Below are positions 9,655 to 25,530 of a stretch of 36,131 nt of DNA, one piece after another. Both the position numbers and the translations under genes were made by a program. The DNA is from an uncultured Porphyromonadaceae bacterium. Lineage in GTDB: Bacteria; Bacteroidota; Bacteroidia; Bacteroidales; Muribaculaceae. Position 1 is the stretch's first letter. Every line of letters starts with the position of its first letter. The notes under the pieces were generated by a model. The model worked only from the letters and a program-made list of their open reading frames with translations, searched no databases and had not been told where the DNA came from. The stretch spans positions 1 to 36,131 of the forward strand of contig CANOLV010000026.1 in the NCBI GenBank assembly GCA_947567425.1, given 5' to 3'.

Positions 9655-9695
9655 TGCACAGGATTGACAACGGCTATTAACTTGACTGTAGTTAA

Positions 9696-11555
9696 ATGAA
9701 ACGAATAAATTTGTTGTGGTTTTTGTCGGTTATGCTGTTCAATGCGGCATGCGATTCCGGGCATTACGGATCGGCCGACGATGATTCAGACGGAACTGCT
9801 ACTTTTGTCATAGGCGCGCAAGACAGGTATGGACTGTCGGTAGTCACGCGTGCCGGCGAAGAGGAAGATGCCGGTTCTGACGAGGGGGACGGTGCCGGTG
9901 ATGTATTGCCGGAAGGACTGTCTGACCTGAAATATGTGCTTTCTGACGGCGAAGGAAATATTATAGGCCATCATCAGGCTGTAATGTCCGACGATTTCAG
10001 TCGTCTGACTCTTGAGGGACTTAAGAGCGGACGATATTCCATCATGTTTGTCGGCGGCGCTGCCGGCAATGGATCGATGGATCTTGAGTCGCCGGTGACG
10101 GTTTCCGATCCTTGGCTTGTCAATAAGAATTCCGGCAGACCTGTGAATTCCGTCTACTATTATAAAAAAGTAGATTTTGCCATAGGCTTTGATCAGGCTC
10201 CGGTCAATGAAAGCGTTGAGCTTGATCTGGCGGTGGCGAAAGTAGATGTGGCTGTCAGAATGGATAATCCTGCGTTATGGCGGCATATCAAGAAGGTCAC
10301 GGTGACGCTGGACGGAGAAGTATCTACGGCGCTTAATGCCGACGGTTCATATTCCGGAGGACATAAAGTGGCGGAATTTGACATTACGGATCCATCAGGA
10401 GTGCTTACGTTTGTATCTTTTCCTTCTGCAGAACCGGTCGACGGACATATCGATGTGGTGTCGACGGTCGACGGAGGGGAAGAATTTTCCACCCGGTATA
10501 CTTTTGAAGGCCTTAACTTAAGGAAGGGAACAGCTTCGCGCATCGAACTTGTCTACCGCCATCCGGAATCCAAGGCCGGCCTGTTGTATGTGGCTGACGA
10601 TCAGTTGTGGCGTTTTGAACCGGACACGATGTTCATGTCCGACGAACCGCGTGAGGTGTTCTACAATAACTCGATCCGATCGTTCTATGTCAATGCACCG
10701 CTGCGGTTTTTGATTTCTGATGACCATAAGCTTGGAGTCAGGCTGTTTTCTCCCATAGGGGTGGGCAATGTCAGAGTGCTGGGACGCTTCCGCGACATAA
10801 GCAGCGAGTGGGTTGACCTTGCCTACTTTGAGCGGATACCACCTTTCATGGAGTGCTTCTTCGACCTCCCTGTAGTGAGCAAGGAGTGCCTGTATAAGAC
10901 CGAATCCGGACGTTATGTCAGGATTCCGGCCCAGCCGGACCTCAGCTCAAACGACATAGAGATACGCTTTGAGACTGACGATCCGTTCATGGCCAAGATC
11001 TCTACCATCGACTCCCGGTGGTATATCAGATTCAGTCCGTTCGGCGCCGACAACGGACATGCATCCTGGCGCCACATGACTCCGATACTTTGCCGCCATG
11101 GTGTGGCGTTGGCATTGAACATGGCATTCATGTTTGCTTCACCGGAATTCAACGCCGAACTTAATAATTATGACGGCATACTGAAGGATAACGGCGGATC
11201 GCCCATAAACCTCAACAATCTGCGGAAATCAATCCGTAATCATGGCGGACTGCAGCTTGGCCGTGTGGTCGGCGTGGGAGGTCTTGGCGGCGGACAGACA
11301 TACGGACTTGCCGATTACTGCTACACGGGTGTATATCACGACGCTACAGCTCCCAATTCGAATCCTCACAATTATGCCCGTCAGGCCATGTTCCATGAAT
11401 ATGGTCACTGTCTGGGCTATAATCATAGTTCCAACATGACATACGGCGATGTGTGGACGGTGCTTTGTGCGAAGATGTTCGTGCAGCTGGGCAGAGAGGG
11501 TAAGTTGCCTGTGCCTAATCGTACAGATGTCACTTCGTTGCCTTACCAGCGTTGA
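9696..11555 (+). CDS. Lipoprotein with fimbrial-anchor-like N-terminus and metzincin-type zinc protease motif
   Basis: A 619-residue predicted lipoprotein (MKRINLLWFLSVMLFNAAC, Cys19). An acidic low-complexity run lies at residues about 54-69. The region from about 70 to 290 looks like the Mfa2/FimB fimbrial anchor family: a short peptide-like DLKYVLSDGEGNIIG strand and LEGLKSGRYSIMFVGG. Near the C-terminus FHEYGHCLGYNH (residues 566-577) is an exact HExxHxxGxxH zinc site, with His567, His571 and His577 as ligands and Glu568 as catalytic base. It is followed at once by SNMTYG, which fits a metzincin Met-turn (SxMxY), with Met581 unusually close to the third histidine. A secreted or surface zinc protease is therefore well supported. 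Its substrate is unknown. It sits in a probable operon, 41 bases after one exported protein gene and 34 before another. Confidence 0.72.
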   Translation: MKRINLLWFLSVMLFNAACDSGHYGSADDDSDGTATFVIGAQDRYGLSVVTRAGEEEDAGSDEGDGAGDVLPEGLSDLKYVLSDGEGNIIGHHQAVMSDDFSRLTLEGLKSGRYSIMFVGGAAGNGSMDLESPVTVSDPWLVNKNSGRPVNSVYYYKKVDFAIGFDQAPVNESVELDLAVAKVDVAVRMDNPALWRHIKKVTVTLDGEVSTALNADGSYSGGHKVAEFDITDPSGVLTFVSFPSAEPVDGHIDVVSTVDGGEEFSTRYTFEGLNLRKGTASRIELVYRHPESKAGLLYVADDQLWRFEPDTMFMSDEPREVFYNNSIRSFYVNAPLRFLISDDHKLGVRLFSPIGVGNVRVLGRFRDISSEWVDLAYFERIPPFMECFFDLPVVSKECLYKTESGRYVRIPAQPDLSSNDIEIRFETDDPFMAKISTIDSRWYIRFSPFGADNGHASWRHMTPILCRHGVALALNMAFMFASPEFNAELNNYDGILKDNGGSPINLNNLRKSIRNHGGLQLGRVVGVGGLGGGQTYGLADYCYTGVYHDATAPNSNPHNYARQAMFHEYGHCLGYNHSSNMTYGDVWTVLCAKMFVQLGREGKLPVPNRTDVTSLPYQR

Positions 11556-12064: not shown

Positions 12065-14314
12065 TCAGATGTCGTAGGTGATGGTAACAGCTTTGCGGAT
12101 GTCAGTGGCCGGAACCACTACTACCGGGCAGTTTTTGTCAGAGTCGGTCTCGATACGTGCTTTTTTACCGTTGACTTTTACGGATGAGGCATCCTTAAGT
12201 CCGGGCAAAAGCAGACGGTAGTCTCTCTTCTTGACCAGTCCGGGATAATCACCTTGGGTCGGCGCTACTGTTACTGTGGCTTTGTTGCCCTTCTGCGTGT
12301 ATGTCAGGTCGGTGGTGGCATATACTCCTTTCTGGTAGTCGAGGGTGAGTCCGTCGTCTTCATAAAGGGAATACGTATTGCTGACATCGCCCGTGGCGGG
12401 ATAGACGCGCATGACGAGAGTGGTCAGATCGGCCGTGGCCGGACGTGAGGTGTATGGCTGTGTCGGCAGAATCCATCCTCCCTTCAGATACATGGGGAAT
12501 TCGTCGAGAGTCTTGCTGATAGACAGTGTCTGGCCTCCGTCGATTTTCTCATGTGTGAAATAGTCATACCATGTTTCGCCTGAAGGGAACCATACTGTCT
12601 GTGACGCAATCTTGTCGGGTCCTTCGCCGGGTGTGCTGATGGGTGCGGCAAGAATAAGGTCGCCAAAAGTAAACTCCTGCGGACAGTTGAACGACTCTTT
12701 TTCATGTCCGTAATCTATGTACATGCTTCTGTTGAGCGGCAACATGGTGTTATGTGTCTGCCATACGCTGCTGTAGATGTAGGGCATAAGTTCGGAGCGC
12801 ATGTGGTACATCTTGCGCATGGCTTTGGTCTCGCGGTCGCCGCTTATCCAGGGACGGCGGTCGAGTCGGGCATCTTTGGTAGAGTGTACGCGCAGGGCGG
12901 CGGAGAGTGCTCCGAACTGGGTCCATCGAGCCGTAAGCTCGGGGTTGGGTTCGCCACGGAAGCCTCCGATGTCGTGCGCCCAGTAATAGCAGCCTCCGTT
13001 GCCACTGCCGGAAGTCAATTTGACTTCAAACGCGAGCATGTCCCAATTGGCCTGGGCGTCGCCGGAGAACTGTATGGGATGGCGATGGTCGCCCCATCCG
13101 GCCCAGCGTGAGTAGCCGGCGCCACGCTTATTCTTGCGCATGGAGTTGCGGTAGTAGAGTTCGTTGATCCATGCTAAAGTGGTGGTGTTTGTGCCGGGCA
13201 CGTAAGGGTACAGATAGTTCTGCTGCCAGTCGAGCCACCAAAAGTCCACGCCTATGTCCTCCGACGGATGGTGGGCGTACTCGAAGAACTGCTTCATATA
13301 TTCAGGATCGCCTGGATTGAACAGCGGCACTTCTCCATCTTTGGCGCCAAGGGCTTTGGCAAATTCAGCATAATTCTCCTCGTGCGGGCGTATGCCGTCG
13401 TGCGGATGGTCGTTGAGCGACACTGTGATGCCACGGCTGTGGATTGAGTCGAGCAGGGCGGCCGGATCAGGAATCAGTTCGCGGTTCCATGTGTAGCCGT
13501 TCCAGTTCAGGTGGCCGTTGTGTCCGGTTCCGACTTTCGCGTCGTTGGTGTGCCATCCCATGTCGAAAACAATGTTGTCGAGAGGGAAGTCGTTGTCGTC
13601 ATATCCGCGTATGATGTCGAGAAATTCATCGGATGTATAGTCCCAGTATCTGCAGTACCACACTCCGTGGATATACTTGCGGGTCATGGGCACTTTTCCG
13701 CTGATGGCACCGAGCGAAGCAAGCGCCGCCTTGAAGTCATTGCCGTAGATGAAGCAGTACTGGTCCTGTATATGGTTCTTGGTGTCGCGGGGCTGAATCC
13801 AACCGTCGACAAGAATGTCGGCGCGTCCGTCGTCGATCATGTACCATCCGTCGGTGCTCAGCAGTCCGTCGTCCATAGGGATCTCCTTAGTGACTCGGTC
13901 GAGAGTCTCTACCGGGCCGCCGAGATTGTTCTTGGTGATGAACCGGTTGGTAAACTTCTTTTCCTTGCCGTTGAGAGTGTAGAACACGTTGAGGTTGGCT
14001 GTCGAAAATGGAAATCCGTCGTTGTGGTAGCGGATGCGCAGGGCCGGAGTGTTTATCTCATACCAGTCGCCGTCGAGCGGAGTCACAGTTATGGAATCCA
14101 TGCTCAAGGTGTTTGACCTGTCGTAGGCAAACATGGTGGGCTCATCAATGAACTTGCCGTCGTTGGCATATTCAAGACGAAGGAGCGTGGGGGTGATGAT
14201 GGTCATTCGGGCATTCCCGAACACCAGGGGATTTCCCTTGGTGTCCGTGGAGGCTACAGCTGATGAGAACCCGAGAGTCAGCAGCAGGATGATTGAAAAT
14301 ACTCGATTAAACAT
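12065..14314 (-). CDS. GH31 family alpha-glycosidase, exported
   Basis: A 749-residue retaining glycoside hydrolase of family GH31 with a signal peptide (FSIILLLTLGFSSAVA). Domain order fits the family: an N-terminal beta-sandwich (about 25-205), a catalytic barrel (about 210-560) and C-terminal beta domains. The nucleophile is Asp362 in VDFWWLDWQQN and the acid/base is Asp419 in IQFSGDAQANW. Other barrel strands are HGVWYCRYWDY, LDNIVFDMGWH, ITVSLNDHPHDGIRPHE and YYWAHDIGGFRG. GH31 covers alpha-glucosidases, alpha-xylosidases, alpha-galactosidases and alpha-N-acetylgalactosaminidases, and the sequence alone does not settle which applies. There is no lipobox, so it is probably periplasmic. 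It is the last gene of the glycan operon, 16 bases after the phosphoesterase gene, and is expected to trim imported oligosaccharides. Confidence 0.9.
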   Translation of the reverse strand: MFNRVFSIILLLTLGFSSAVASTDTKGNPLVFGNARMTIITPTLLRLEYANDGKFIDEPTMFAYDRSNTLSMDSITVTPLDGDWYEINTPALRIRYHNDGFPFSTANLNVFYTLNGKEKKFTNRFITKNNLGGPVETLDRVTKEIPMDDGLLSTDGWYMIDDGRADILVDGWIQPRDTKNHIQDQYCFIYGNDFKAALASLGAISGKVPMTRKYIHGVWYCRYWDYTSDEFLDIIRGYDDNDFPLDNIVFDMGWHTNDAKVGTGHNGHLNWNGYTWNRELIPDPAALLDSIHSRGITVSLNDHPHDGIRPHEENYAEFAKALGAKDGEVPLFNPGDPEYMKQFFEYAHHPSEDIGVDFWWLDWQQNYLYPYVPGTNTTTLAWINELYYRNSMRKNKRGAGYSRWAGWGDHRHPIQFSGDAQANWDMLAFEVKLTSGSGNGGCYYWAHDIGGFRGEPNPELTARWTQFGALSAALRVHSTKDARLDRRPWISGDRETKAMRKMYHMRSELMPYIYSSVWQTHNTMLPLNRSMYIDYGHEKESFNCPQEFTFGDLILAAPISTPGEGPDKIASQTVWFPSGETWYDYFTHEKIDGGQTLSISKTLDEFPMYLKGGWILPTQPYTSRPATADLTTLVMRVYPATGDVSNTYSLYEDDGLTLDYQKGVYATTDLTYTQKGNKATVTVAPTQGDYPGLVKKRDYRLLLPGLKDASSVKVNGKKARIETDSDKNCPVVVVPATDIRKAVTITYDI

Positions 14315-14330
14315 GTAATTGGTACTGAAT

Positions 14331-15857
14331 TTATTGGTTATTTACTGATGCGGTGTAGACGTTGCCGAAGGTATCCGCGGCGCGGACGGTGATGGTCTGC
14401 CACTGCGGATTGGCGGGCTTGTAGAGGAACATGTGGTCATTGTTCTCTTCAGGTTCAGCCGAGGGGCGCTTTTCCCATTCGTTGTTGCCCTGAAGTGTCT
14501 TGACTGCTTCAGGGTCAAGAGTCTTGATGTTATAGAGTTCTGTCCATGAGCCACCGTCTTCCTGAATCTCCACAGTCCAGTCTGTGTGCCAGAAAAATAC
14601 GTTGACGAGCAGATTCTCATTGTCGATCTGGACGGGTTTGCCTGCCTCGTCCTTGCCGAATCTGAAAGAAGCCTCTTCCGGCAGGTATATCTTGATCTGA
14701 TAGTCGCGGGGAGTCTCCGACCCGATATAGTATTTGTCGACCACTTCGTTGCCGTCAAATTCGAGCACCGCATATCCGCGCGGGCTTCCGTCGTTGCAGA
14801 TGACACCGTTCCAATATGCACCCATCACGGCACCGATGGTGGTCTCGTTGATGTTGTCGGCAATGGTAGTGATATAGTTGTTGTGTGAATGTCCGGAAAG
14901 GATCTGGACCTGATGGTAGTCCTTCACGAGTTCATACAAGGCCGCGTTGTTAGTGACTTGCGAAGGCGAGTTGCGACGCATGGTGGGTATGTGTGTGGCC
15001 AGAAGAATCGACTTGTCCTTATCCACATGCTCCAGGTCCTTGGCTAGCCATTCGAGCTGCTGGTCGGTGATGGTGGCGTCGTAATCGTTGCGGCCGGTCA
15101 CTCCGCGGTAAAGGACATCGTCGAGCACTACGAGGTGCCACTGTCCGATATTGCAGGAGTAGTATGTGGGGCCGAGCTCATCGCGGAACTCGCGGTCGGA
15201 TTCTGTGTCGTTCTTCACTGTCTCGTTATGGTCGTGGTTGCCTATGACGGAGAACATGGGTATGCCGGGCTGTGCCACCATCTTTTTATACGTAGGGAAT
15301 AGATCGGGTTTGTTCCATACCAGGTCGCCTAATGATATGCCGTAGACATTTCCGGTCAGTGATGCGGCGAAGTCGACCATGTTGCCCATTATGTCGTCAT
15401 TCCAGATGGCTATGTCGACATTGTCGCCGATCTGGGGGTCGGCGATGGTGAAGAGCTTGAAGCTCTGCGACACCGGACGGCTTTTAAGCTTGAAATTCAT
15501 CTGAATGACGGCATCTTCCTCGAAATTCAGGGTCTTGTATATCTTCGGCAGTCCGCTTTCCACTGGAATTTCGCAGTCGGCCGGCACCGAGACGAATATG
15601 TGCTGGCGTCCGATGGACCGCATCTGGTATTCACCGTTTTCGTCGGTGGCGATCACGTTCATGCCGTCGCTTACTATGATGCCCTGACGCGGCGCTCCGT
15701 CGACAGTCACCCTCCCGACAACGTTCATGCCGGGGCGGTGCTGTATGGTCACTTCTTCATTTTCGACACCGTCGCGGTGTGCCACCTTGTTTTCTTCACA
15801 AGATGTCAAGATGGTGGCAACCAGCGCGGAGTATGTAAGATATCTAAATATTTTCAT
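14331..15857 (-). CDS. Calcineurin-like metallophosphoesterase, lipoprotein form
   Basis: A 508-residue lipoprotein (signal ending LTSC, Cys20, followed by EENK, an acidic sequence compatible with surface export in Bacteroidetes). Three regions are visible: an N-terminal small beta domain (about 45-125, VVGRVTVDGAPRQGIIVSDG to HIFVSVP), the central phosphoesterase (about 130-345) and a C-terminal beta domain. This matches the Bacteroidetes MetallophosN/Metallophos/MetallophosC architecture. Metal-site motifs are ADPQ (Asp140, Gln142), GD (177-178), GNHDH (206-210), THIP (His289) and GHSH (322-325). Canonical enzymes have DxH in the first motif; here it is DxQ. Substrate is unknown. It lies in the susCD operon, between susD and the GH31 gene, and has a close paralogue at 23255-24745. 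Hydrolysis of a phosphate mono- or diester on the target glycan is inferred. Confidence 0.85.
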   Translation of the reverse strand: MKIFRYLTYSALVATILTSCEENKVAHRDGVENEEVTIQHRPGMNVVGRVTVDGAPRQGIIVSDGMNVIATDENGEYQMRSIGRQHIFVSVPADCEIPVESGLPKIYKTLNFEEDAVIQMNFKLKSRPVSQSFKLFTIADPQIGDNVDIAIWNDDIMGNMVDFAASLTGNVYGISLGDLVWNKPDLFPTYKKMVAQPGIPMFSVIGNHDHNETVKNDTESDREFRDELGPTYYSCNIGQWHLVVLDDVLYRGVTGRNDYDATITDQQLEWLAKDLEHVDKDKSILLATHIPTMRRNSPSQVTNNAALYELVKDYHQVQILSGHSHNNYITTIADNINETTIGAVMGAYWNGVICNDGSPRGYAVLEFDGNEVVDKYYIGSETPRDYQIKIYLPEEASFRFGKDEAGKPVQIDNENLLVNVFFWHTDWTVEIQEDGGSWTELYNIKTLDPEAVKTLQGNNEWEKRPSAEPEENNDHMFLYKPANPQWQTITVRAADTFGNVYTASVNNQ

Positions 15858-15905: not shown

Positions 15906-17558
15906 TTAGTAGCCGGGATTCTGTTCGAGCAGCGGATTACCGGCGATAGCGGTGCTCGGTAGCGGGAATATGCGCTTTGTTGCATCCGAAGGCTCGTGGT
16001 CCCACCATGATTCGGTGTCCCAGAGTCCAAGGCGGATGAGGTCTGTGCGGCGACGTCCTTCTCCGAGGAACTCGGTCATCCATTCGTCGGCGAGACGGTA
16101 GATGTCGAAGTCGTCGGGCACGGGATCCGGATCCACATTTCCTGCGAAGTTGCGCTGGCGCACCTTGTTGATGAGCTCGGCGGCTTCGGTCTTGTTGCCC
16201 TCACGCCAGCGGCATTCTGCGAGCATGTAGTAAATCTCGGTCAGGCGTATCACCGGGCAGTCGGGATTCCAAAGATACTGAATATCCGTGTTATTTGGAA
16301 TAGGAGCTTTTACTAATCTTACGCCAGAGTCCTCGGAACCGGCAAGCATGTTGGATTCTTTTCCGGTCACATTGATATAGTCCTTAAGCACGATGTCCTG
16401 TCCGGCCTTGTCCTTCATGCCTTTCACGGTCTTTCCGGTGATGGGATTCTTCTGTTCGCCAACGCAGAACATGCCCTGGTATTTCTTGCCGCCAAGATAG
16501 ACGTAAGGCTTTTTGCGGAGGTCCTTGTCATGGAATTTCTCGTAAGTGTTGCCGAGTTTCCAGTCGGAGTATACAGGGCTTCCTTCTGATTCGCGCGAAG
16601 GGGTAAGGCAGAAACCATTGTAGATCGAGGCAGGGAATGCTACATCGAAGTAGTCACGGGCCTGCTGGCTGTAGAAGTAGCGGTAATACCAGTTCCATTC
16701 CAGTTTGGCATTTTCCGAGGGTACGTTCCAGATGGCTTCGGGCGACTTGTCGTTGTCAAACGAGTGGGGTCCGTACCATGTCGGGTCGAGATCATACTTT
16801 CCGTATACACCGTTGATTATGTCCTCGCAGATTTTCGCGGCATCTGCGAATCGGTCCACACCGGTGTATGCCTTGGAGTTGAAGTAGAGCTGTGCGAGCA
16901 TCGCGGCGGCTGCACCCTGCTTGATGTAGCCGTCTTCGCTTGCCCCGAGCACTTCCTTCTTATTGAGCACCGGGATGGCTTCCTTGAATCGCTTTTCAAT
17001 GAAGTCGAATGTCTCCTGCGCGGACGATCTGGAAGTCACGGCGTCGTTCACGGAGCTGTAGAGGGCCATTCCACCGAAGAAGTCAAGACCGCGCATGTAG
17101 AAGTATGCCATGATGGAGTTGAGCTGGTTGAGGTGGTCGGCCTTGACTTTGTCGTCGAGGCCGATGGCGTTGTAGTTAACTCCGGCGAGGTCTTCGTAGG
17201 CCTCGAGCGCGCGGGCTACGCCCTGTACCGTGCCGGTGTAGGTGTTGTCGATGAATCGGTCGTTAGGAGCCCACGTGTGGTACTGCAGACGCAGGTACTC
17301 GCCATTGTTGTAGAAGTCCGAGCCGCGTGTGGGGCAGGTCATCTCGTCGGTTGTCAGCTCCTGCAGATACCATCTGTCGGCGCCGATATACCATTTCCAG
17401 TGGGTGAATGGCCGGGACAGGATGGCGTAGGTGTTCTCCGGACATGTGATGAACGTGTCGGGAGTGACGCTCGAATAGTATACCTCGTCGAGGTCGCAGG
17501 AGTTCAAGGTCACGGCTCCAAAAAGAGCGAACAGTGTATATTTTAGTTTTTTCTTCAT
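15906..17558 (-). CDS. SusD/RagB-family nutrient-binding lipoprotein
   Basis: The outer-membrane glycan-binding partner of the SusC protein encoded just upstream (32-base gap). From the ATG at 17558 the protein starts MKKKLKYTLFALFGAVTLNSC, a lipoprotein signal with the lipidated cysteine at residue 21, followed by acidic DLDE. The frame is open to 17621, but that extension has no signal character. Family features are the helical TPR-like region (LNSIMAYFYMRGLDFFGG, AAAAMLAQLYFNSKAYTG), RLTEIYYMLAECRWREGNKTEAAELINKVRQR, FLGEGRRRTDLIRLGLWD, and the C-terminal RIFPLPSTAIAGNPLLEQNPGY, which is typical of SusD proteins. Length is 550 residues. SusD acts as a lid on the SusC pore and confers glycan affinity. 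Which glycan cannot be read from sequence. Confidence 0.95.
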   Translation of the reverse strand: MKKKLKYTLFALFGAVTLNSCDLDEVYYSSVTPDTFITCPENTYAILSRPFTHWKWYIGADRWYLQELTTDEMTCPTRGSDFYNNGEYLRLQYHTWAPNDRFIDNTYTGTVQGVARALEAYEDLAGVNYNAIGLDDKVKADHLNQLNSIMAYFYMRGLDFFGGMALYSSVNDAVTSRSSAQETFDFIEKRFKEAIPVLNKKEVLGASEDGYIKQGAAAAMLAQLYFNSKAYTGVDRFADAAKICEDIINGVYGKYDLDPTWYGPHSFDNDKSPEAIWNVPSENAKLEWNWYYRYFYSQQARDYFDVAFPASIYNGFCLTPSRESEGSPVYSDWKLGNTYEKFHDKDLRKKPYVYLGGKKYQGMFCVGEQKNPITGKTVKGMKDKAGQDIVLKDYINVTGKESNMLAGSEDSGVRLVKAPIPNNTDIQYLWNPDCPVIRLTEIYYMLAECRWREGNKTEAAELINKVRQRNFAGNVDPDPVPDDFDIYRLADEWMTEFLGEGRRRTDLIRLGLWDTESWWDHEPSDATKRIFPLPSTAIAGNPLLEQNPGY

Positions 17559-17590
17559 TTTGTCTTTTAAATATATGTGTGTCTGAAATA

Positions 17591-20554
17591 TTAGAAAGTC
17601 AATTGAGCTCCGAATGTCCATCTCGTGGTCTGCGGATACATGCTTGTGGCACTTCTTACGTATTCAAATCCGGGGAAGAGTCCGTTGATGTTCACTTCCG
17701 GATTGTAGCCGTTGTACTTCGTGAACGTCACAAGGTCGCGTGCGGTCACATACAGGCGTGCGCGGGTCAGATACTTGTTCCATCGTGAGGTGTCGATGGT
17801 GTAGCCTAAAGTCAGTGCGTCTATCTTCAGGAACGATGCATCGGAGATGAAGTAGTCGGATGTGATACGTGTGTCGTTGATGGCCTTGTTGTCTGTGTAG
17901 GCAATCTTGAGCACATTCTGCTGCGACGACGACTTAAGGCCGTGGTACAGGTTGATCTGGCTGAAGGCGTCGTAGTCGATCCATGAGCGGAGCGAGATGC
18001 CGAGGTCGAAGTTGCGGTAGCGGAAGTTGTGGTCCATGGACAGTACCAGTTTCGGAACCGCATTTCCGACATAGTGCTTGTTCTCGTCGATGAGGTTGTT
18101 GACAGCTCCGTCACGTGCCGGCACTACGTTCATGTCCTTGTCGTAGATGAGCCACTTGCCGTCGGAGTCCAGACCTGCATGCTTGAACACCCAGAACTGT
18201 CCGATAGTCGAGCCGTTGACGATCTTGCTTGCATAGCCCATCGAAGCGGGGAATGCGTCGCCGTACAGATAGGAGTTTGCCGCACCGAGATTCTTGATTT
18301 TCGACGAGTTCTGCGAGGCACGCAGTGTGGTCGACCATGAGAAGTGGCGGTTCTGTATGATATCGCCTCCGATCTCGAATTCCCATCCGTCGTTGGTCAG
18401 ATTGCCGACATTCTTCATAATGGTGTCATAGAGCATCGGCGGTACGGGTGCGGGCACTTCAAAGAGCATGTCGTCGACCTGGCGGTGGTATAAGTCGAAT
18501 TTACCATAGAGGCGGTTGTTAAAGAACGAGTAGTCGATGCCGACATTGAACTCTTTCTTTTCTTCCCACTTCAGGTCGGGATTGATGTTGCGGGTAGATC
18601 CGTAGCCGGGCTGCCAGATGCCGAGTGTGGGCCAGAGGTCGTTTGACTTGTAGGTACGGACAGTATATCCCGAACCGAAGTCGTTGTTACCGGTGACACC
18701 GTATCCCACGCGGAGTTTGAGGTCGTTGATCCATTCCACGTCTTCAAGGAACTTTTCGTTGCTTATGCGCCATCCTCCGGAGATTGACCAGAAGTTACCC
18801 CAACGGTTGTTAGGACCGAATTTGGAGCTTCCTTCACGACGGTAGCTTACAGTGGCCATATATGTGTCGCGGAATGAGTAGTTGGCGCGACCGAACAGGG
18901 CGAGGAGTCTTTCTCTGGGATCTTTGCGGGATGTCATAGTGGCGTATCCGTCGGAGAGGTCGGTACCGGCCGACATGTCCCATCCGCCGATTCCGTCTAC
19001 GGTAAAGTTGGCGTTTGTCATGCTGAACGCTTCGCCGTTCTCTTCATAGAAGCTCCATCCGGCCACTGCGTCGAAGCGGTGGTCGCGTCCGAAGTCGCGC
19101 ATGAATGTGGCGTATGCCTCGAATGATTTGTTGATGGTCTTTGAATACTGGTGTTCAGCCTTTCCGCGCTTGCCCGAGTCGATGCTTTCGCGGTGGCTCT
19201 GATTGTAGTAAAGGTATTTCTGATATTGACGCTGGTCGATACCCATCGTTCCTTGTATCCAAAGTCCGTCAAGAAGGGTTATCTTAAGAGTGGCGTCGGC
19301 GAGCAACCACTGGTCCTTTCCGCTGTAGTCCTGATATTCGATGTCGGCCACGGGGTTCCAGTCGGTGCCGGAGAATCCGATGGTGTTGACATTGTACTTT
19401 TTAGGATTGTTGGGATCCATCAAGGGGATGGTGGGGTTCAGTTCGATGGCTTTCTGGAATGTGTATGAACCGTTTCTGCGGTCGCGGTCTGCCTGACGGT
19501 ACTGGGCTTTCATTGAGATCTCCACTTTCCCATCCCACATCTGATAGCGTCCGTTGATGCGTCCGGAGTAGTCGGCGCGTCCGTCGCCGATAACTACACC
19601 CTCCTGGTTCTGATATACGAGCGAGGTGTAGAGCTGAAGCGACTTAGTGCCTCCTGAGATCGAGAGCGAGTGGCGCTGTGAGAATGGATTGCTGCGGGTC
19701 AGTTCGCTGTACCAGTCGGTGTCGGAGCCGTAGTCCTGTCCGATGCCGTATTCGATGTACTCCTGAGATGAAAGGAGGTCAAGATGCTTGCGCACGCTTT
19801 CAGTGGATAGCTCCACTGAATAGTTGACCTGGGTCTTGCCCTCTTTGGCGCGTTTGGTGGTGACGAGGATTACACCGGCGGCGGCGCGGGTTCCGTAGAT
19901 TGCTCCGGCGGATGCGTCCTTAAGCACGTCGATTGATTCTACGTCTTCCTGGTTGATGGCGCGGAGGTCGCCTCCGGGTACTCCGTCAATCACGACGAGC
20001 GGACCCTGTCCGGCATTGACCGAAGCCACACCGCGGAGCTGATAGTCGTTGGAGGCATTGGGGCTTGAGCTTCCCGAGATGGTCAGACCCGACACTTTTC
20101 CCTGAAGGGCAGTGGCGATTGTCGAACCACCGAGTCCGGATATGAGGTTGTCGCCCTTAATCGATGTGATGGACGAGGTGACCCTCTTCTTCTCCATTGT
20201 TCCATAGCCAACCACCACTACGTCTTTGAGAAGGGTGGCGCTCTCCTTGAGCACAACGTCGAGGTGGGTCTGGTCGGCAATCTTTATATTGGCAGTCTCA
20301 TAGCCGACGGAGGATATGCGCAGTTCCTGGCCTTTCTTGGCGTCGATGGAGAAATTTCCGTCGAGGTCGGCCGAGGTGCCTATTGATGTGCCGCTGATCA
20401 TGACGGTGGCTCCGATCAGAGGCTCGCCCGTCGGGTCGGTGACGGTGCCGGTGATCTGTGCGATGGCCGAGGAGAGTCCTCCGGAGACCATGCACATAAG
20501 CAGTATGCAAATTATCTTATTCAGATTTATTGCGTTCGTAAATCTGGATGTCAT
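17591..20554 (-). CDS. SusC/RagA-family TonB-dependent outer-membrane transporter
   Basis: A 987-residue outer-membrane beta-barrel importer. In order: a signal peptide (about 1-33), a carboxypeptidase-regulatory-like domain (ITGTVTDPTGEPLIGATV to ISSVGYETANI, about 34-95), the TonB-box-like VVVVGYGTMEKK, a plug domain (LQGKVSGLTISGSS, YQLRGVASVNAGQGPLVVIDGVPGG, DVESIDVLKDASAGAIYGTRAAAGVILVTTK) and a long barrel ending TTRWTFGAQLTF, with the C-terminal aromatic residue usual for outer-membrane proteins. It imports oligosaccharides too large for porins, powered through TonB. No anti-sigma-type N-terminal extension is present, so an ECF-sigma relay is not indicated. It follows a BACON lipoprotein gene by 18 bases and precedes susD. 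Confidence 0.96.
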   Translation of the reverse strand: MTSRFTNAINLNKIICILLMCMVSGGLSSAIAQITGTVTDPTGEPLIGATVMISGTSIGTSADLDGNFSIDAKKGQELRISSVGYETANIKIADQTHLDVVLKESATLLKDVVVVGYGTMEKKRVTSSITSIKGDNLISGLGGSTIATALQGKVSGLTISGSSSPNASNDYQLRGVASVNAGQGPLVVIDGVPGGDLRAINQEDVESIDVLKDASAGAIYGTRAAAGVILVTTKRAKEGKTQVNYSVELSTESVRKHLDLLSSQEYIEYGIGQDYGSDTDWYSELTRSNPFSQRHSLSISGGTKSLQLYTSLVYQNQEGVVIGDGRADYSGRINGRYQMWDGKVEISMKAQYRQADRDRRNGSYTFQKAIELNPTIPLMDPNNPKKYNVNTIGFSGTDWNPVADIEYQDYSGKDQWLLADATLKITLLDGLWIQGTMGIDQRQYQKYLYYNQSHRESIDSGKRGKAEHQYSKTINKSFEAYATFMRDFGRDHRFDAVAGWSFYEENGEAFSMTNANFTVDGIGGWDMSAGTDLSDGYATMTSRKDPRERLLALFGRANYSFRDTYMATVSYRREGSSKFGPNNRWGNFWSISGGWRISNEKFLEDVEWINDLKLRVGYGVTGNNDFGSGYTVRTYKSNDLWPTLGIWQPGYGSTRNINPDLKWEEKKEFNVGIDYSFFNNRLYGKFDLYHRQVDDMLFEVPAPVPPMLYDTIMKNVGNLTNDGWEFEIGGDIIQNRHFSWSTTLRASQNSSKIKNLGAANSYLYGDAFPASMGYASKIVNGSTIGQFWVFKHAGLDSDGKWLIYDKDMNVVPARDGAVNNLIDENKHYVGNAVPKLVLSMDHNFRYRNFDLGISLRSWIDYDAFSQINLYHGLKSSSQQNVLKIAYTDNKAINDTRITSDYFISDASFLKIDALTLGYTIDTSRWNKYLTRARLYVTARDLVTFTKYNGYNPEVNINGLFPGFEYVRSATSMYPQTTRWTFGAQLTF

Positions 20555-20572: not shown

Positions 20573-21859
20573 TTAGTTTGTTGTGTCTATACGTGTAACT
20601 TTAATGTTGTCAAGGAACCAGCGGTAGTAGCCGGAGCCAAGTCCGAATTGGGTGGAACGGATCATGATGCGGGTGTCGGCTGTGACGCCTTTGATTTTTA
20701 TGGATCCGTCTTTCCACTGCCAGTTGATGTTCTTGTCCGAGTTGTTGACGGGTTCGAACGGGGTGCTGATGAGAGAGTGCTTTCCGTTCTCTATCTTGCC
20801 GTCATTCTCAATTTCTACGGACAGGGTCACTTTGTCGGTGCCGTTTTTGGCGAAGGTGAACGTCAGTTCCACGTCGGCCATCTCTCCCTGGGGTATGTCA
20901 AGCGGATTCTTTATGCAGACGCCTGTCTGGTTGCTGCCTTTTCCGAGCTTTAGATATCCGTCGGCCACGTAGATACAGCTTCCGGCGGGATTGAGGTCGA
21001 TCAGGGCATTGTCAAACGCAGAGCGAAGATGCTCGTTGCCGCTATTGTACAGAGGCTTTGTCTTGCCGTTCTTGCCGTTGATGCTTCCTACCTGGTCCTG
21101 ACAGTCGTCGGGATACATAAGAGCCTCTTCGTGTGCCCAGTCGAATGTCTCTGAAAAGTAGACATGGCCGGCTGTTTTGGCGTCGGGAGTGTAGGTGCCC
21201 TGCTGTCTGATGCTTATCGGGAACGTTTTCTTTCCTGCCACGACGAGTATGTCTGCTTCACGGGCCTGATTGGTAGAGTTAGGTTCGGCGGTGATCTTGA
21301 TCTCGGTGGTTCCGGGATGTCCGTCGTTGTGGTCGAGGGTTATCCAGTCGTTTCCTTCGGGCAGTTGTATACTCCATTCATAGTTTGTCACGATGGAGAA
21401 TGACGGCGTGGCAGATCCATAGATGTCGATGCCTTCTTTGTCGAGCGGCATTGAATTTGTGGAGATCTCCATTTCGAGGACTTTAGTCTTCTGCGATACA
21501 CCTACCTGCTCGGGCTTTCCTCCGTTGAGCTGGAATTCGATGACACCGTAGCGGTCTTCTCCGGTGTAGTTCTCTTCGGCGGTGACGTGTATGGTGAGAC
21601 GTCCGCGGTCGCCGCTTTCATAGTTGAGCTGCACCCATTCCGGAGCGTAAACCACTTTCCAAGCATCGTTGGCTCCAAGCTGAAACGAAGCCGGTGTGCC
21701 GTCGGCGGTAAGTCCGTTGTCTTCGAGGACTATTTCGTTCTCCGTAGTGTCGATGTAGGGCGGAGCGTCCTTTTCGTTGTCGCAGCTTGTCAATACTGCC
21801 AGTCCGCAGAATAGCACCGCACTCAGGGCTATGTATGTGAATTTATTTATTAATTTCAT
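20573..21859 (-). CDS. BACON-domain surface lipoprotein, two BACON repeats
   Basis: A 428-residue lipoprotein (VLTSC, Cys26, then acidic DNEKD). Two BACON-type beta domains are visible, about residues 35-125 (FQLGANDAWKVVYAPEWVQLNYESGDRGRLTIHVTAEE to IEFQLNGGKPEQVGVSQK) and about 130-220 (FSIVTNYEWSIQLPEGNDWITLDHNDG to ILVVAGKKTFPISIRQQG). A C-terminal domain of about 200 residues begins VYFSETFDWAHEE and ends GYYRWFLDNIKVTRID, which suggests a jelly-roll carbohydrate-binding-like fold. The next gene upstream encodes a protein with the same C-terminal domain. BACON proteins usually serve as spacers or glycan-binding parts of surface glycan-binding proteins. This one is likely a binding protein for the SusCD complex. 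No catalytic residues were recognised. Confidence 0.82.
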   Translation of the reverse strand: MKLINKFTYIALSAVLFCGLAVLTSCDNEKDAPPYIDTTENEIVLEDNGLTADGTPASFQLGANDAWKVVYAPEWVQLNYESGDRGRLTIHVTAEENYTGEDRYGVIEFQLNGGKPEQVGVSQKTKVLEMEISTNSMPLDKEGIDIYGSATPSFSIVTNYEWSIQLPEGNDWITLDHNDGHPGTTEIKITAEPNSTNQAREADILVVAGKKTFPISIRQQGTYTPDAKTAGHVYFSETFDWAHEEALMYPDDCQDQVGSINGKNGKTKPLYNSGNEHLRSAFDNALIDLNPAGSCIYVADGYLKLGKGSNQTGVCIKNPLDIPQGEMADVELTFTFAKNGTDKVTLSVEIENDGKIENGKHSLISTPFEPVNNSDKNINWQWKDGSIKIKGVTADTRIMIRSTQFGLGSGYYRWFLDNIKVTRIDTTN

Positions 21860-21880: not shown

Positions 21881-22822
21881 TTAGTTGTCAAGAATTTCTT
21901 TAAGCTGTACGTTGTCAAGGAACCATCGGCAATATTTGTTGGCTCCTTTGCCATTGGTATGGATCGAGATCTTGGAGTCGGCCGAGATACCTACGAGCGT
22001 TACACCCATCTGGTGCCATTTCCACTGTTCGGCAGGTATCATGGCTTCGCTCATTGTCTTCCCTGTTTCGGCGATTGTTCCGGGGCCGTCAATTATCTCC
22101 ACCACGATGGGCACTGTGTCGCCACTGCCGCCTCCGTCCTTGCAGGCCTCAAAGGATAGTGTTGCGTTAACGTATCCTTCTGCATCTATTCCAGGGAGGA
22201 TTACTCCGGTGTCGAAGTTGCTGTTGGAATTGAAGTGGATATAGTGCAGGTATAGGCCGATGGCTTTTCGTTCGGGATTCCAGTCGGTGAGCTTGCAGTT
22301 TGCGGCCCATGCATCTTTGCCGGTATCGTCGGAGTATATGTTCCAGCGGTTGCTGTTGCCGCCACCTAAGGCTACCGGATCAGATTCCGGTTTTGCGATG
22401 GGTATTGCCCAGTCGAATGTCTCGGAGTAGAATACTCTGGCGAGGTCGATTTCGGCAAGAGTCTGCGTTACTTTGATGTTTTCTACGAGATGGTGACTTC
22501 TGACGGTCAGATTGCCTGTTCGGGGAGCCTCTGTGTCATTTGACTCGGCTTTCACGGTGACCCATGTGTAGCCTTGTCCGGAAGGTTTGTTTACGGTCAG
22601 CCAGGGTTGGTCGCTGACGATTTCGTATCCTTTGTTGGCGATGACTAATATAGTGGCGTTTGATCCGGTCGATAGCTGTCCGTTGCGGGTGATTTCGACT
22701 TGTGATTTATCCACGGACAGTCGAGGTCCCGCTTCATCGGCTTGATCTTCCACTCCACATGAAGCTGTAGTCAACAGCAGGGCGAGGCATGACAGCCACG
22801 CGAGGTAGTTGAGCATTTTCAT
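21881..22822 (-). CDS. BACON-domain surface lipoprotein, one BACON repeat
   Basis: The first gene of the glycan operon. It encodes a 313-residue lipoprotein (LTTASC, Cys22, then GVEDQADE). One BACON-like domain spans about residues 35-125 (ILVIANKGYEIVSDQPWLTVNKPSGQGYTWVTVKAES to LVENIKVTQT). The C-terminal domain starts VFYSETFDWAIPIA and ends KYCRWFLDNVQLKEI, clearly homologous to that of the next gene, so the pair arose by duplication. The region between contains SNFDTGVILPGIDAEGYVNATLSFEACKDG, consistent with a beta-sandwich. A surface glycan-binding role is inferred from family and operon. The gene starts about 140 bases after the predicted transcript start, leaving a long leader, and is 21 bases from the next gene. 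Confidence 0.8.
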   Translation of the reverse strand: MKMLNYLAWLSCLALLLTTASCGVEDQADEAGPRLSVDKSQVEITRNGQLSTGSNATILVIANKGYEIVSDQPWLTVNKPSGQGYTWVTVKAESNDTEAPRTGNLTVRSHHLVENIKVTQTLAEIDLARVFYSETFDWAIPIAKPESDPVALGGGNSNRWNIYSDDTGKDAWAANCKLTDWNPERKAIGLYLHYIHFNSNSNFDTGVILPGIDAEGYVNATLSFEACKDGGGSGDTVPIVVEIIDGPGTIAETGKTMSEAMIPAEQWKWHQMGVTLVGISADSKISIHTNGKGANKYCRWFLDNVQLKEILDN

Positions 22823-22941
22823 TTAGAAATTGTTGAATTTGAATTTAAGTTAAGGTTTAAATTTGAAAAAGATAAGGGTAGTGGAGATTGTCGAATTAAA
22901 CCTCCGAAATTAGATTAGGATTAGGGCTCATAAACGGGATT

Positions 22942-22976
22942 CCGTTTCGTCGATGTTTCATTGCGAAACAAAGGTA
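22942..22976 (-). promoter_or_regulatory. Conserved promoter-leader block, copy 1
   Basis: A 35-base block read on the minus strand from the -7 element TACCTTTG into the start of the transcript. It matches the block at 24948-24982 at about 80 percent or more of positions. It contains the inverted repeat GTTTC-GCAAT-GAAAC right at the predicted start site, and an ATG (22961-22959) opening a 21-codon frame, MKHRRNG onward. It is probably a shared operator or leader signal. Confidence 0.65.
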
Positions 22977-22999
22977 GTTGATGAAAATGTAACAACAAA
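22969..22999 (-). promoter_or_regulatory. Promoter of the BACON/SusCD/phosphoesterase/GH31 operon
   Basis: On the minus strand TTTG (22996-22999), exactly 19 bases, then TACCTTTG (22969-22976). This is a complete match to the Bacteroidetes -33/-7 pattern. The predicted start of transcription is near 22962. Confidence 0.8.
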
Positions 23000-23153
23000 A
23001 TATTATATAGAAAAAAATTCGCGCTACAACATTTTTTGTGTAAGAAGGTTCGCAAACGGCCTCTGTTTTAAGAGATTTAAATGCTTTAATGCGGTTTGGC
23101 AAACAGTTGTTAATGGGTAGGGGCAGATTGCGGATTCGGGGTTTTAAATAAGT

Positions 23154-23179
23154 ACGTGCCGGCGATATCGCCGGCACGT
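23154..23179 (-). terminator. Perfect 26-base palindrome, possible terminator of the second phosphoesterase gene
   Basis: A fully symmetric sequence with half-site ACGTGCCGGCGAT, about 75 bases downstream of the phosphoesterase stop. As RNA it gives a very stable hairpin. On the minus strand it is followed by ACTTATTTAAAA rather than a clean T-run, so a terminator is likely but not certain. A protein-binding palindrome is the alternative. Confidence 0.5.
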
Positions 23180-23254
23180 GAATGCATCGCAGGCGGAACT
23201 TACGCAATCGGTAATCAGTTCCAGCCTGTCCGGATGAAATAGCCTGCTGGAGGT

Positions 23255-24745
23255 CTATTTGCGCTTTTCAGTGGTAATGTATACGTTGCCGTATGGGTCG
23301 GTGGCCCGCACGGTGACTGACTTCCATTTGCGTCTTGTAGGCTTGTAGAGGAACATGTGGTCATTGCGTTTCGTAGGTTCTGCGCTCGGGCGTTTTTCCC
23401 ATGGGTTTTTGCCCTGGAGCAGTTTTACGGCGGCGGGGTCGAGCGCGAACTGGTTGGACAGTTCTGTCCACTCTCCGTTGTCCTCTTTGATTTCGACCTT
23501 CCAGTCAGTGTGCCAGAAGAATACGTTTACAAGTATGCTGTCGTTGTCAATCTTGAGCGGTTTGCCGTCGGCATCTTTTCCGAACCGGTATGATGCCTCT
23601 TCCGGACGGTATATCTTAATCTGGTAGTCCTTGGGCGTGGTGGATCCTTTGTAGTAGTTGTCTACGATGCGGTTGCCGTCGAATTCATACATGGCAAAGC
23701 CTCTTGGACTTCCGTCGTCGCATATATCCCCGTTCCAGAATGCACCCATCATTGACGCGAGGGTCTGTTCGGTTATGTTCGAGGCTATGTCGGTCTTGAA
23801 GTTGTAGTGCGTGTGTCCGGACAGAATCCTGACATCATTGAAGTCCTTCAGTATGTCATAAAGTTCGGCGGCGTTGTTGATGTGGGCAGGAGCGTTTCGC
23901 CTGCTTGTGGGTATGTGCATGGCCACGATGAGCGATTTGTCTTTGTCAACGTGGGAAAGGTCTCTTCTGAGCCAGTCCATCTGCTGCGGGGTTATTTCGC
24001 CGGTGTAGTCGCCTCTTCCCCGGATTCCGCTCATAAGAACGTCGTCGAGCACTACAAGGTGCCAGTCGCCGATATTGCATGAGTAGTAAGTAGGTCCGAA
24101 TGTATCACGGAATTCCTTGTCGGAGAGTGTGTCGTCATGGACAAATTCATTGTGGTCGTGATTGCCGATTACGGGAAATACTGGAATTCCCATTCTGGTG
24201 ATGTGGTAATTATAGGAATCGTACAGACCCGGATTGTTCCAGACGATGTCGCCGAGGCTTATGCCGTAGACGTTTCCGGAGAGTGTGGAGGCGAATTCGA
24301 TCATGCCGGGCATGATCTGTTCGTCGAGCATGGCTATCTCCACAAGGTCGCCGGGCTGGACGTCGGCCATGGCCAGAAGCTTGAATTTTGTGGCTTTCGG
24401 TTGGCTTTCGAGGTTAAAGTCGATCTGCAACGGCTTTTTCCCGTCTTTGAATTCGATTTCTTCGTAAATTTTCGGCATTCCGTCCTTTAGGGGTATGCGA
24501 CAGTCTGACGGGACGGAAACGAACACATGCTGCCGTCCGGAAGTATTCATCTGATACACGCCGTTTTCATCAGTCACCACGACGTTTATGCCGTCGCTGA
24601 CTACTACCCCCTGCCTCGGGGCGCCGTCGACGGTGACACGTCCGGCAAGGTTACGTCCCGAAAGAGGGCGTATGGCATCTGCCTCAGCCGCCGTTACCGA
24701 TGCAGCGGATAGCAGAGATATTGCTATTAGTGTATGAAACTTCAT
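23255..24745 (-). CDS. Calcineurin-like metallophosphoesterase, soluble exported form
   Basis: A 496-residue paralogue of the lipoprotein phosphoesterase at 14331-15857, with long identical stretches (GRVTVDGAPRQG, GNVYGISLGD, FGPTYYSCNIG or its near copy, HLVVLDDVL). The same three-part architecture is present. Metal-site motifs are ADVQ (Asp128, Gln130), GD (165-166), GNHDH (194-198), MHIP (His277) and GHTH (310-313). The key difference is the N-terminus: a classical signal peptide (HTLIAISLLSAASVTAA) with no lipobox cysteine, so the product should be periplasmic or released. It is transcribed alone from its own promoter, which shares a conserved block with that of the susCD operon. Substrate is unknown. 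The pair may act on the same phosphate-bearing glycan on the two sides of the outer membrane. Confidence 0.85.
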   Translation of the reverse strand: MKFHTLIAISLLSAASVTAAEADAIRPLSGRNLAGRVTVDGAPRQGVVVSDGINVVVTDENGVYQMNTSGRQHVFVSVPSDCRIPLKDGMPKIYEEIEFKDGKKPLQIDFNLESQPKATKFKLLAMADVQPGDLVEIAMLDEQIMPGMIEFASTLSGNVYGISLGDIVWNNPGLYDSYNYHITRMGIPVFPVIGNHDHNEFVHDDTLSDKEFRDTFGPTYYSCNIGDWHLVVLDDVLMSGIRGRGDYTGEITPQQMDWLRRDLSHVDKDKSLIVAMHIPTSRRNAPAHINNAAELYDILKDFNDVRILSGHTHYNFKTDIASNITEQTLASMMGAFWNGDICDDGSPRGFAMYEFDGNRIVDNYYKGSTTPKDYQIKIYRPEEASYRFGKDADGKPLKIDNDSILVNVFFWHTDWKVEIKEDNGEWTELSNQFALDPAAVKLLQGKNPWEKRPSAEPTKRNDHMFLYKPTRRKWKSVTVRATDPYGNVYITTEKRK

Positions 24746-24947
24746 TTTAGGGTTTCTGTTAGTTATAATTCCTTGTTAATCATATCGCCTGTATACACTA
24801 TCACAACTTGTTAGGGTAAAAGGAAAAATTCTTGTCCGATATCCATAATCACGAAGACTAATTTTGTGGTATTTACATTTGAGGTATAGTATATTTAAAA
24901 TTATGGTATGCTTTAATCTATCTACTTTTATATGTTTCAAGTGCAAA

Positions 24948-24982
24948 ACGAAACGTTGGTGTTTCATTTCGCAACAAAAGTA
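24948..24982 (-). promoter_or_regulatory. Conserved promoter-leader block, copy 2
   Basis: The counterpart of 22942-22976. From the minus-strand -7 element TACTTTTG it continues with GTTGCGAAATGAAACACC, against TTTCGCAATGAAACATC in copy 1. GAAAC and GTTTC arms with a 6-base spacer form a small inverted repeat just inside the transcript. Confidence 0.65.
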
Positions 24983-25005
24983 GTTATCATATTTTAAACG
25001 GCAAA
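24975..25005 (-). promoter_or_regulatory. Promoter of the second phosphoesterase gene
   Basis: On the minus strand TTTG (25002-25005), exactly 19 bases, then TACTTTTG (24975-24982). It has the same spacing as the susCD operon promoter. The predicted start of transcription is near 24968. Confidence 0.8.
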
Positions 25006-25065: not shown

Positions 25066-25530
25066 CTAAATATCGGCTATAAGTTCGGCAATAGATTTAT
25101 TGAGAATGGGATGCTTCCATCGGGGTGCTATCTCCAGCATCGGAATCAGAACGAACTTCCGAAGGTGCATCCGGGGATGGGGAAGAGTCAGGCCGGGTGT
25201 GTTTATGATCCGGTCGTCGACTGCTATCAGATCGATGTCGATAAGACGGTCTATGTATGTGCCGTCGGCGCCTCGATGTGAATCGGGGGATATCCGGTGT
25301 TGGATTGACAGGAGTGTGTCGAGAAGTTCCTGCGGAGTCAGCGAAGTGGGCATGGATATGCCTATGTTGAGAAACTCATTAGGGGAGTCGTAGCCCCATG
25401 GCGGAGTGGTTATGTAGCGTGAACGGGTGACCTTATATCCGGATTGGAATTCAATAAGGGCGATAGCACGCTCGATTATAGCGCGGCTATCGCCCTTATT
25501 TGAGCCTATGTTGATGTAGGCTACCGGCAT
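25066..25530 (-). CDS. folK: 2-amino-4-hydroxy-6-hydroxymethyldihydropteridine pyrophosphokinase
   Basis: A cytoplasmic folate-pathway enzyme that transfers pyrophosphate from ATP to 6-hydroxymethyl-7,8-dihydropterin, preparing it for dihydropteroate synthase. The protein has 154 residues, normal for FolK. Motifs are YINIGSNKGD at the N-terminus, TTPPWGYDSPNEFLNIGI, RLIDIDLIAVDD (magnesium-binding DxD in DIDL) and LTLPHPRMHLRKFVLIPMLEIAP, which carries the substrate-binding HPR signature. It starts 11 bases after infB on the same strand, so it is probably the last gene of the rimP-nusA-infB transcript. No obvious terminator follows before the phosphoesterase promoter. Confidence 0.95.
   Translation of the reverse strand: MPVAYINIGSNKGDSRAIIERAIALIEFQSGYKVTRSRYITTPPWGYDSPNEFLNIGISMPTSLTPQELLDTLLSIQHRISPDSHRGADGTYIDRLIDIDLIAVDDRIINTPGLTLPHPRMHLRKFVLIPMLEIAPRWKHPILNKSIAELIADI

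Follow-up and report, generated by a model that had tools for sequence, protein, structure and literature searches.

The genome of this uncultured Muribaculaceae bacterium (2.92 Mb in 57 contigs; closest named relative found by the phosphoesterase MPE1 a Muribaculum sp. MAG, 85% identity) carries two neighbouring transcription units on the minus strand of contig C26, and the promoters of these units share a sequence block that continues beyond the -7 box. We asked what this block does and which other genes carry it. The window, meaning the whole stretch of DNA analysed, is contig C26 (36,131 nucleotides). Its features that matter here are the following.

24975..25005, minus strand: P1, sigma-ABfr-type promoter, TTTG-19-TACTTTTG (TTTG at 25005-25002, TACTTTTG at 24982-24975)
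24943..24974, minus strand: putative operator of P1, TTGCGAAATGAAAC-ACCAAC-GTTTCGTTTTGC, with inverted half-sites (from sequence and matrix)
23255..24745, minus strand: metallophosphoesterase MPE1 (MetallophosN/Metallophos/MetallophosC by Pfam), sole gene of unit 1
22969..22999, minus strand: P2, sigma-ABfr-type promoter, TTTG-19-TACCTTTG (TTTG at 22999-22996, TACCTTTG at 22976-22969)
22942..22968, minus strand: putative operator variant of P2, TTTCGCAATGAAACATCGACGAAACGG, both half-sites flipped relative to P1 (from sequence and matrix)
21881..22822, minus strand: BACON-domain protein 1 (BACON1), first gene of unit 2 (Pfam)
20573..21859, minus strand: BACON-domain protein 2 (BACON2), unit 2 (Pfam)
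17591..20554, minus strand: SusC/RagA TonB-dependent receptor, unit 2 (Pfam and NCBIfam)
15906..17621, minus strand: SusD family lipoprotein, unit 2 (Pfam)
14331..15857, minus strand: metallophosphoesterase MPE2, fifth gene of unit 2, 59-62% identical to MPE1
12065..14314, minus strand: GH31 alpha-glycosidase, unit 2 (top PDB sequence match 7wj9, E 2.4e-106)

Unit 2, with the gene order BACON1-BACON2-SusC-SusD-MPE2-GH31, has its SusC and SusD genes adjacent, as in a polysaccharide utilization locus (PUL). The identity between MPE1 and MPE2 bears out the first-pass annotation, which had described the phosphoesterases of the two units as paralogous. The stop codon of an HPPK gene (window 25066-25530), which itself follows the genes for NusA and IF-2, precedes P1 by about 60 bp, and the phosphoesterase unit of the sister genome G155 stands behind the same housekeeping genes. 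Elsewhere in the window, on the plus strand at 7744-11555, two neighbouring proteins of 636 and 619 aa had no Pfam match above cut-off, the 636-aa protein giving a weak Fib_succ_major match.

Promoter boxes and the shared block

The coordinates of both promoters and the 19-base spacing from TTTG to TAnnTTTG were exactly as first annotated, and both promoters have the boxes of the sigma-ABfr consensus, TTTG near -33 and TAnnTTTG near -7, as it appears in the excerpted text of PMC7366714. These boxes are generic, the pattern TTTG-N18-20-TAnnTTTG having 205 matches in the whole genome (109 + 96) and the reversed pattern 9 + 10. The block behind the -7 box is not generic. Counted from the TA of the -7 box, P1 and P2 were identical at 24 of 29 bases (83%), at 26 of 35 (74%) and at 30 of 45, so the strong likeness described earlier stands, while the exact figure over 35 bases is lower than the roughly 80% first given. 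The 24 bases preceding the -7 box agreed at 13 positions, a shared TTTTG included, and the spacers between the boxes thus differ, as had been noted. Over the 27 bases behind TTTG, P1 and P2 agreed at 19, compared with a mean of 7.6 for the 153 pairs that can be formed from 18 sigma-type promoters among the 205 matches; the second-best value, 14 of 27, was shared by two pairs, P1 with the glpA promoter and the unrelated L007/L003. When a 25-base block was searched in the whole genome with up to 3 mismatches, only P1 and P2 were found, and the reversed-pattern control gave 0. The same search in 198 family genomes was too loose to be used (18 places vs 10 reversed-control matches); its 16 places outside this genome included four that were regulon-like, in G155, G105, G004 and G024, the last of these with an MPE-like gene.

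The core site across the genome and the family

The core of the block, TAnnTTTG followed by the half-site TTGCGAAA, had three occurrences in this genome, before MPE1 (P1), glpABC and a HAD phosphatase gene. From the -7 box on, P1 reads TACTTTTG-TTGCGAAATGAA, while the glpA promoter reads TACTTTTG-TTGCGAAACTTG and the HAD promoter TACTTTTG-TTGCGAAACTAA; P2 is a variant of this core with flipped half-sites. The exact cores of G155 were likewise located, 3 of 3, before HAD, glpA and MPE1. The first-pass annotation had spoken of a two-unit glycan regulon, which was right in the regulator it implied and too narrow in scope, because the same core also precedes glpABC and the HAD gene here, and precedes either glpA or phosphoesterase/SusCD units in relatives. 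At least four promoters belong to the proposed regulon, those of the two original units among them, and its parts are dispersed in the genome, with the PUL on C26, glpABC with a transporter gene, HAD and GDPD on C6, and the candidate regulator on C41.

Across 397 family genomes, TANNTTTGTTGCGAAA was found at 66 places, spread over 51 genomes, compared with 13 places for the reversed pattern; the 66 collapsed to 65 distinct contexts, all of which were inspected. With a TTTG at -33, 34 of 41 contexts were within 400 bp upstream of a regulon gene (glpA 26, MPE 4, BACON1 2, HAD 2), whereas without it only 3 of 24 were, all before glpA (Fisher 3e-8; since family genomes share ancestry, this and the following p values overstate independence and serve as guides only). 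Seven exact cores with a -33 box were not before a reference gene. In G323 the core was found at a contig edge beside deoR, and the cores before genes for PEPCK (L161), ArgR (L130) and a carboxypeptidase-regulatory-domain receptor (L119), proteins recognised by eye, were taken as chance. The other three, L131, L133 and L134 from one genus, stand before genes for similar secreted proteins of 412-415 aa, possible extra members of the regulon; the first 300 residues of one of these proteins had no Pfam match. The block is thus specific in genome and family searches, a placement upstream of many unrelated genes was not observed in either, and a bound regulator acting on both units, as originally suggested, is its best account.

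The site is not uniformly kept within the family. Of the 97 genomes that have glpA as well as DeoR, 69 showed no exact core before any regulon gene, and the six glpA promoters inspected among these 69 (G013, G057, G092, G024, G182 and G287) were all looser or degenerate, the same-genus promoters of G057, G013 and G092 being degenerate. In G155, the P1, glpA and HAD sites are intact and P2 (L043 near 9955) reads TAACTTTGTACAGCAACAAAAAC, with the promoter kept and the block lost. Joint control of both units, proposed at first reading, agrees with the block at P1 and P2 in this genome but would not be a fixed feature, and sister species may be diverging in how the SusCD unit is regulated.

Matrix scoring of the site

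A 14-bp matrix was built from 42 sites of other genomes and used to scan the window and two other stretches of this genome on both strands, 136,186 positions in all. The first 14 bp of the P1 operator ranked first with 20.5 bits, followed by the HAD site with 16.5 bits, and the own glpA site came seventh with 12.6 bits; the third rank was taken by L087:1732 (15.6 bits), which is not behind a -7 box. P2 was weak in promoter orientation (rank 16, 9.3 bits) and ranked fourth, with 15.1 bits, when read on the plus strand from 22961, which indicates that P2 has the same half-site in reversed orientation (TTTCGCAA for TTGCGAAA). The four regulon promoters were the top four among the 18 sigma-type promoters, the next one scoring -3.1 bits.

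A leave-out test was made without the loci that had been fetched by means of the exact core. In it, at least 5 bits were reached by 23 of the 28 regulon promoters, the other 5 falling below, and by 4 of 83 other sigma-type promoters. Two of these four (L209 and L242, from Rikenellaceae and Alistipes MAGs) stand before a gene for a GlpA-like dehydrogenase (26-28% identity). This gene adjoins homologues of deoR and glpT, and homologues of MPE and SusC follow at a greater distance; the matrix that scored the two promoters contained no Rikenellaceae/Alistipes site. The remaining two are in L022, one of them before an MPE-like gene, and are not independent because that locus was fetched with a related block pattern. 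Outside the family, only 3 of 62 MPE loci had a site of at least 9 bits, though 16 of 62 had a glp or deoR gene nearby, and one of the three sites (L173) was not before a reference gene. PULs of Segatella, Prevotella, Dysgonomonas and Sphingobacterium have kept the genes, and before most of them the full block was not found; L170 and L173 have TTTCGTTTGAAACC behind a -7 box, which resembles the second half-site only.

Two further observations concern C6. A 13.5-bit match at L087:5950 precedes the -7 box of the own glpA promoter by about 180 bp, and a cluster of TTGCGAA/CAATGAAAC/GTTTCGTTT elements at L087:5950-6030, about 110-180 bp upstream of that box, is possibly an auxiliary operator. A possible second phospho-glycan locus occupies L087:12372-17581, downstream of glpABC and the transporter gene. 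Its GDPD gene, just in front of which a half-site match of 12.9 bits was found (L087:12342), is accompanied by one more SusC homologue and by a third phosphoesterase with 26-29% identity.

A DeoR-family protein as candidate regulator

In the window, a Pfam scan of 27 of the 28 non-overlapping ORFs retained (all except 22896-23207, with shorter or overlapping ORFs outside the set) revealed no DNA-binding regulator, in agreement with the earlier statement that the window holds no regulator gene. The candidate regulator is a DeoR-family protein encoded on another contig (C41:5186-5947), which was assigned by NCBIfam DeoR-family models and by 59-98% identity to other family copies; orthologues in L047 and L048 have HTH_DeoR and DeoRC domains by Pfam. 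Its best NCBIfam model was AgaR (NF040755) with 230.9 bits, below the cut-off of 260, followed by SrlR with 198.9, and the E. coli-type GlpR model PRK10906 gave 104.6 bits vs a cut-off of 331. We therefore name it DeoR-family, neither GlpR nor AgaR.

A DeoR orthologue was present in 100 of 397 family genomes, and in at least 85 of these 100 it was within 3.5 kb of glpA. Among the 31 genomes in which a site precedes a regulon gene, 29 had it, vs 71 of 366 others (Fisher 4e-17), and when only glpA genomes were considered, the counts with and without DeoR were 28 and 2 for site genomes vs 69 and 57 for genomes without a site (p 4e-5). Counting this genome, 15 of the 397 family genomes had relatives of MPE1 at E 1e-120 or better, and DeoR was present in all 15. 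In 9 of the 15, one stretch holds the DeoR gene, divergent glpABC encoding anaerobic glycerol-3-phosphate (G3P) dehydrogenase, and MPE or the PUL; among these nine stretches, a GlpT-like transporter gene was present in at least 6, GDPD in at least 8 and HAD in at least 2. The cultured Duncaniella muris (L178) likewise possesses a cluster of glpA, deoR, SusCD, MPE, GH31 and GDPD genes. In G037, which has glpA but yielded no match to DeoR, the 420 bp read upstream of glpA showed neither a recognisable promoter nor a site, a single case that is consistent with a DeoR-site link and is no proof of it.

Half-site geometry and alternative explanations

Directly behind the -7 box stands the core half-site, and a second CGAAA/TTTCG half-site follows 18-22 bp on in varying orientation. 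A second half-site, direct or inverted, was present in 35 of 48 tails, which come from related genomes, vs 26% of shuffled tails. PUL promoters had an inverted TTTCG 18-19 bp beyond the first CGAAA in 10 of 14 cases, while glpA promoters had a direct CGAAA 21-22 bp on in 17 of 32 and an inverted one in 5 of 32. In P2, TTTCG comes before CGAAA with centres 19 apart, both flipped compared with P1. The target promoters thus show repeated short half-sites, as is expected of a DeoR regulon. The range of spacing is narrow while the orientation is free, a pattern better suited to a dimeric or tetrameric protein on DNA than to a hairpin in RNA.

The first-pass annotation had left room for an RNA leader signal, and some data lean that way: the block is within the presumed transcript, P1 RNA folds better than shuffles (z -2.6), folding is more than 2 SD better than shuffles in 7 of 14 PUL leaders, and both transcripts could begin near ATGAAACAC/T, which by eye would give MKH[QR]R. 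We nevertheless find it very improbable that a 5' hairpin or a short leader peptide controls the mRNA, as folding and half-site orientation differ among the classes of site. Only 6 of 32 glpA and 0 of 2 HAD leaders folded as well, so that z < -2 held for 13 of 48 leaders, mostly of the PUL type, without a predicted fold common to all, and P2 itself had z -1.1. The direct repeats of glpA sites are unable to form the P1 hairpin, an ATG at the position in question was seen in only 4 of 32 glpA sites, and the block had no Rfam match above gathering score. On these folding, start-codon and Rfam results, hairpin and leader peptide were rejected as the common mechanism.

Explanations that dispense with a regulator fared still worse. 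The position of the block directly behind the -7 box would suit a sequence preference of RNA polymerase in the initially transcribed region; given how rarely other sigma-type promoters passed the leave-out test that most regulon promoters passed, there is little chance that this is the cause. Least probable of all is that the likeness of P1 and P2 was left over from a duplication of the phosphoesterase unit. MPE1 and MPE2 are indeed paralogues, but P2 serves a BACON gene with MPE2 only fifth in the operon, the P1 and P2 spacers differ, and BACON-operon and glpA promoters of other genera also carry the block; we rejected duplication on the cross-genus sites and the spacers. A protein other than this DeoR might bind the block, since the DeoR-site link rests on sequence, the own deoR is unlinked, on C41, with a promoter that shows no clear site, and G320 and G384 have the site without DeoR. 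We regard this as unlikely, because DeoR accompanies nearly all site genomes and is close to glpA in most genomes that have it, G320 and G384 are only 77% and 74% complete, and the TTTCG/CGAAA core presumably resembles DeoR-family sites.

Proposed regulon and probable substrate

We consider it quite likely that the shared block serves as operator for a DeoR-family repressor of G3P use, with the SusCD locus among the targets. The operator would cover the -7 box and start region of G3P-regulon promoters. At sigma-ABfr promoters, transcription begins some 7 bases past the -7 box, and with the second half-site 18-22 bp in, about two helical turns, a bound dimer or tetramer would lie over the predicted start site. 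G3P or a close metabolite would bind the sensor domain of DeoR, upon which the repressor would leave, allowing joint expression of glpABC with the transporter gene, the HAD phosphatase gene, MPE1 from P1, and the BACON-SusCD-phosphoesterase-GH31 operon from P2. The enzymes of the SusCD unit would then cut phosphodiesters and alpha-glucosides, and G3P would be imported and oxidised. Predicted joint expression with G3P genes suggests that the SusCD unit is probably a locus for a glycerol-phosphate-containing glycan.

That phosphoesterases, GDPD and SusCD share a regulon with glpABC and GlpT-like genes points to G3P as the product and to a glycerol-phosphate-containing glycan or a glycerophosphodiester as the substrate. 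The structural model of MPE1 (pLDDT 90.6) matches class III phosphodiesterases, with the glycerophosphodiesterase GpdQ at rank 7 by E-value, and supports a phosphodiesterase of this general fold, with no particular substrate. Kojibiose and alpha-glucose are known to decorate some lipoteichoic acids. The top match of the GH31 protein, 7wj9, is a Lactococcus alpha-1,3-glucosidase that, according to the excerpted text of PMC9061262, is active on nigerose and acts on kojibiose at 13% of that efficiency. The authors of that paper propose alpha-1,3-glucans, not teichoic acid, as natural sources (PMC9061262), so the GH31 match by itself is no argument for teichoic acid. As a tentative reading, less likely than the operator itself, Muribaculaceae might have a dedicated system under one G3P-responsive DeoR repressor that strips and eats glycerol-phosphate polymers, for example the glucosylated teichoic acids of Gram-positive neighbours, by means of SusCD uptake, two phosphoesterases, GDPD and an alpha-1,3/alpha-1,2-type GH31, followed by import and oxidation of G3P.

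Comparison with known systems and significance

The targets of GlpR in E. coli include glpABC and glpT. In the excerpted text of PMC7567609, GlpR is a DeoR-family regulator of several G3P-metabolism operons, which is similar to the regulon proposed here. Unlike GlpR, the candidate regulator scores far below the PRK10906 cut-off, the sites fall on the -7/start region of promoters of the Bacteroidales type, and a SusCD locus and phosphoesterases are among the predicted targets. Among regulators of the AgaR/SrlR type, AgaR, the best-scoring model here, has the consensus TTTCRTTTYR, which resembles GTTTCGTTTTG at the sites, but the protein is below the AgaR cut-off and its predicted targets are G3P genes, not amino-sugar genes. 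PULs are usually controlled by a local hybrid two-component or sigma/anti-sigma system. Like other Bacteroidales PULs, the locus combines SusC and SusD with BACON proteins and a glycosidase in a single run of genes, whereas its two phosphoesterases, its GDPD neighbours in relatives and its predicted control in common with G3P catabolism, in place of such a local system, set it apart. The literature matches listed (titles and abstract openings, mostly of non-subscription literature) included no paper on a glycerol-phosphate or teichoic-acid SusCD locus or on this regulator in Bacteroidales, and the titles and abstract openings listed for DeoR-family operators, AgaR included, gave no consensus for comparison.

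From sequence alone, these results propose a regulator and an operator for an uncharacterised SusCD locus, together with a probable class of substrate, and link outer-membrane glycan uptake to G3P catabolism. The operator is also a handle for finding further members of the regulon. If it is true that the substrate is teichoic acid or a similar polymer, the regulon would offer a testable explanation of how gut Bacteroidales exploit neighbouring Gram-positive bacteria as food.
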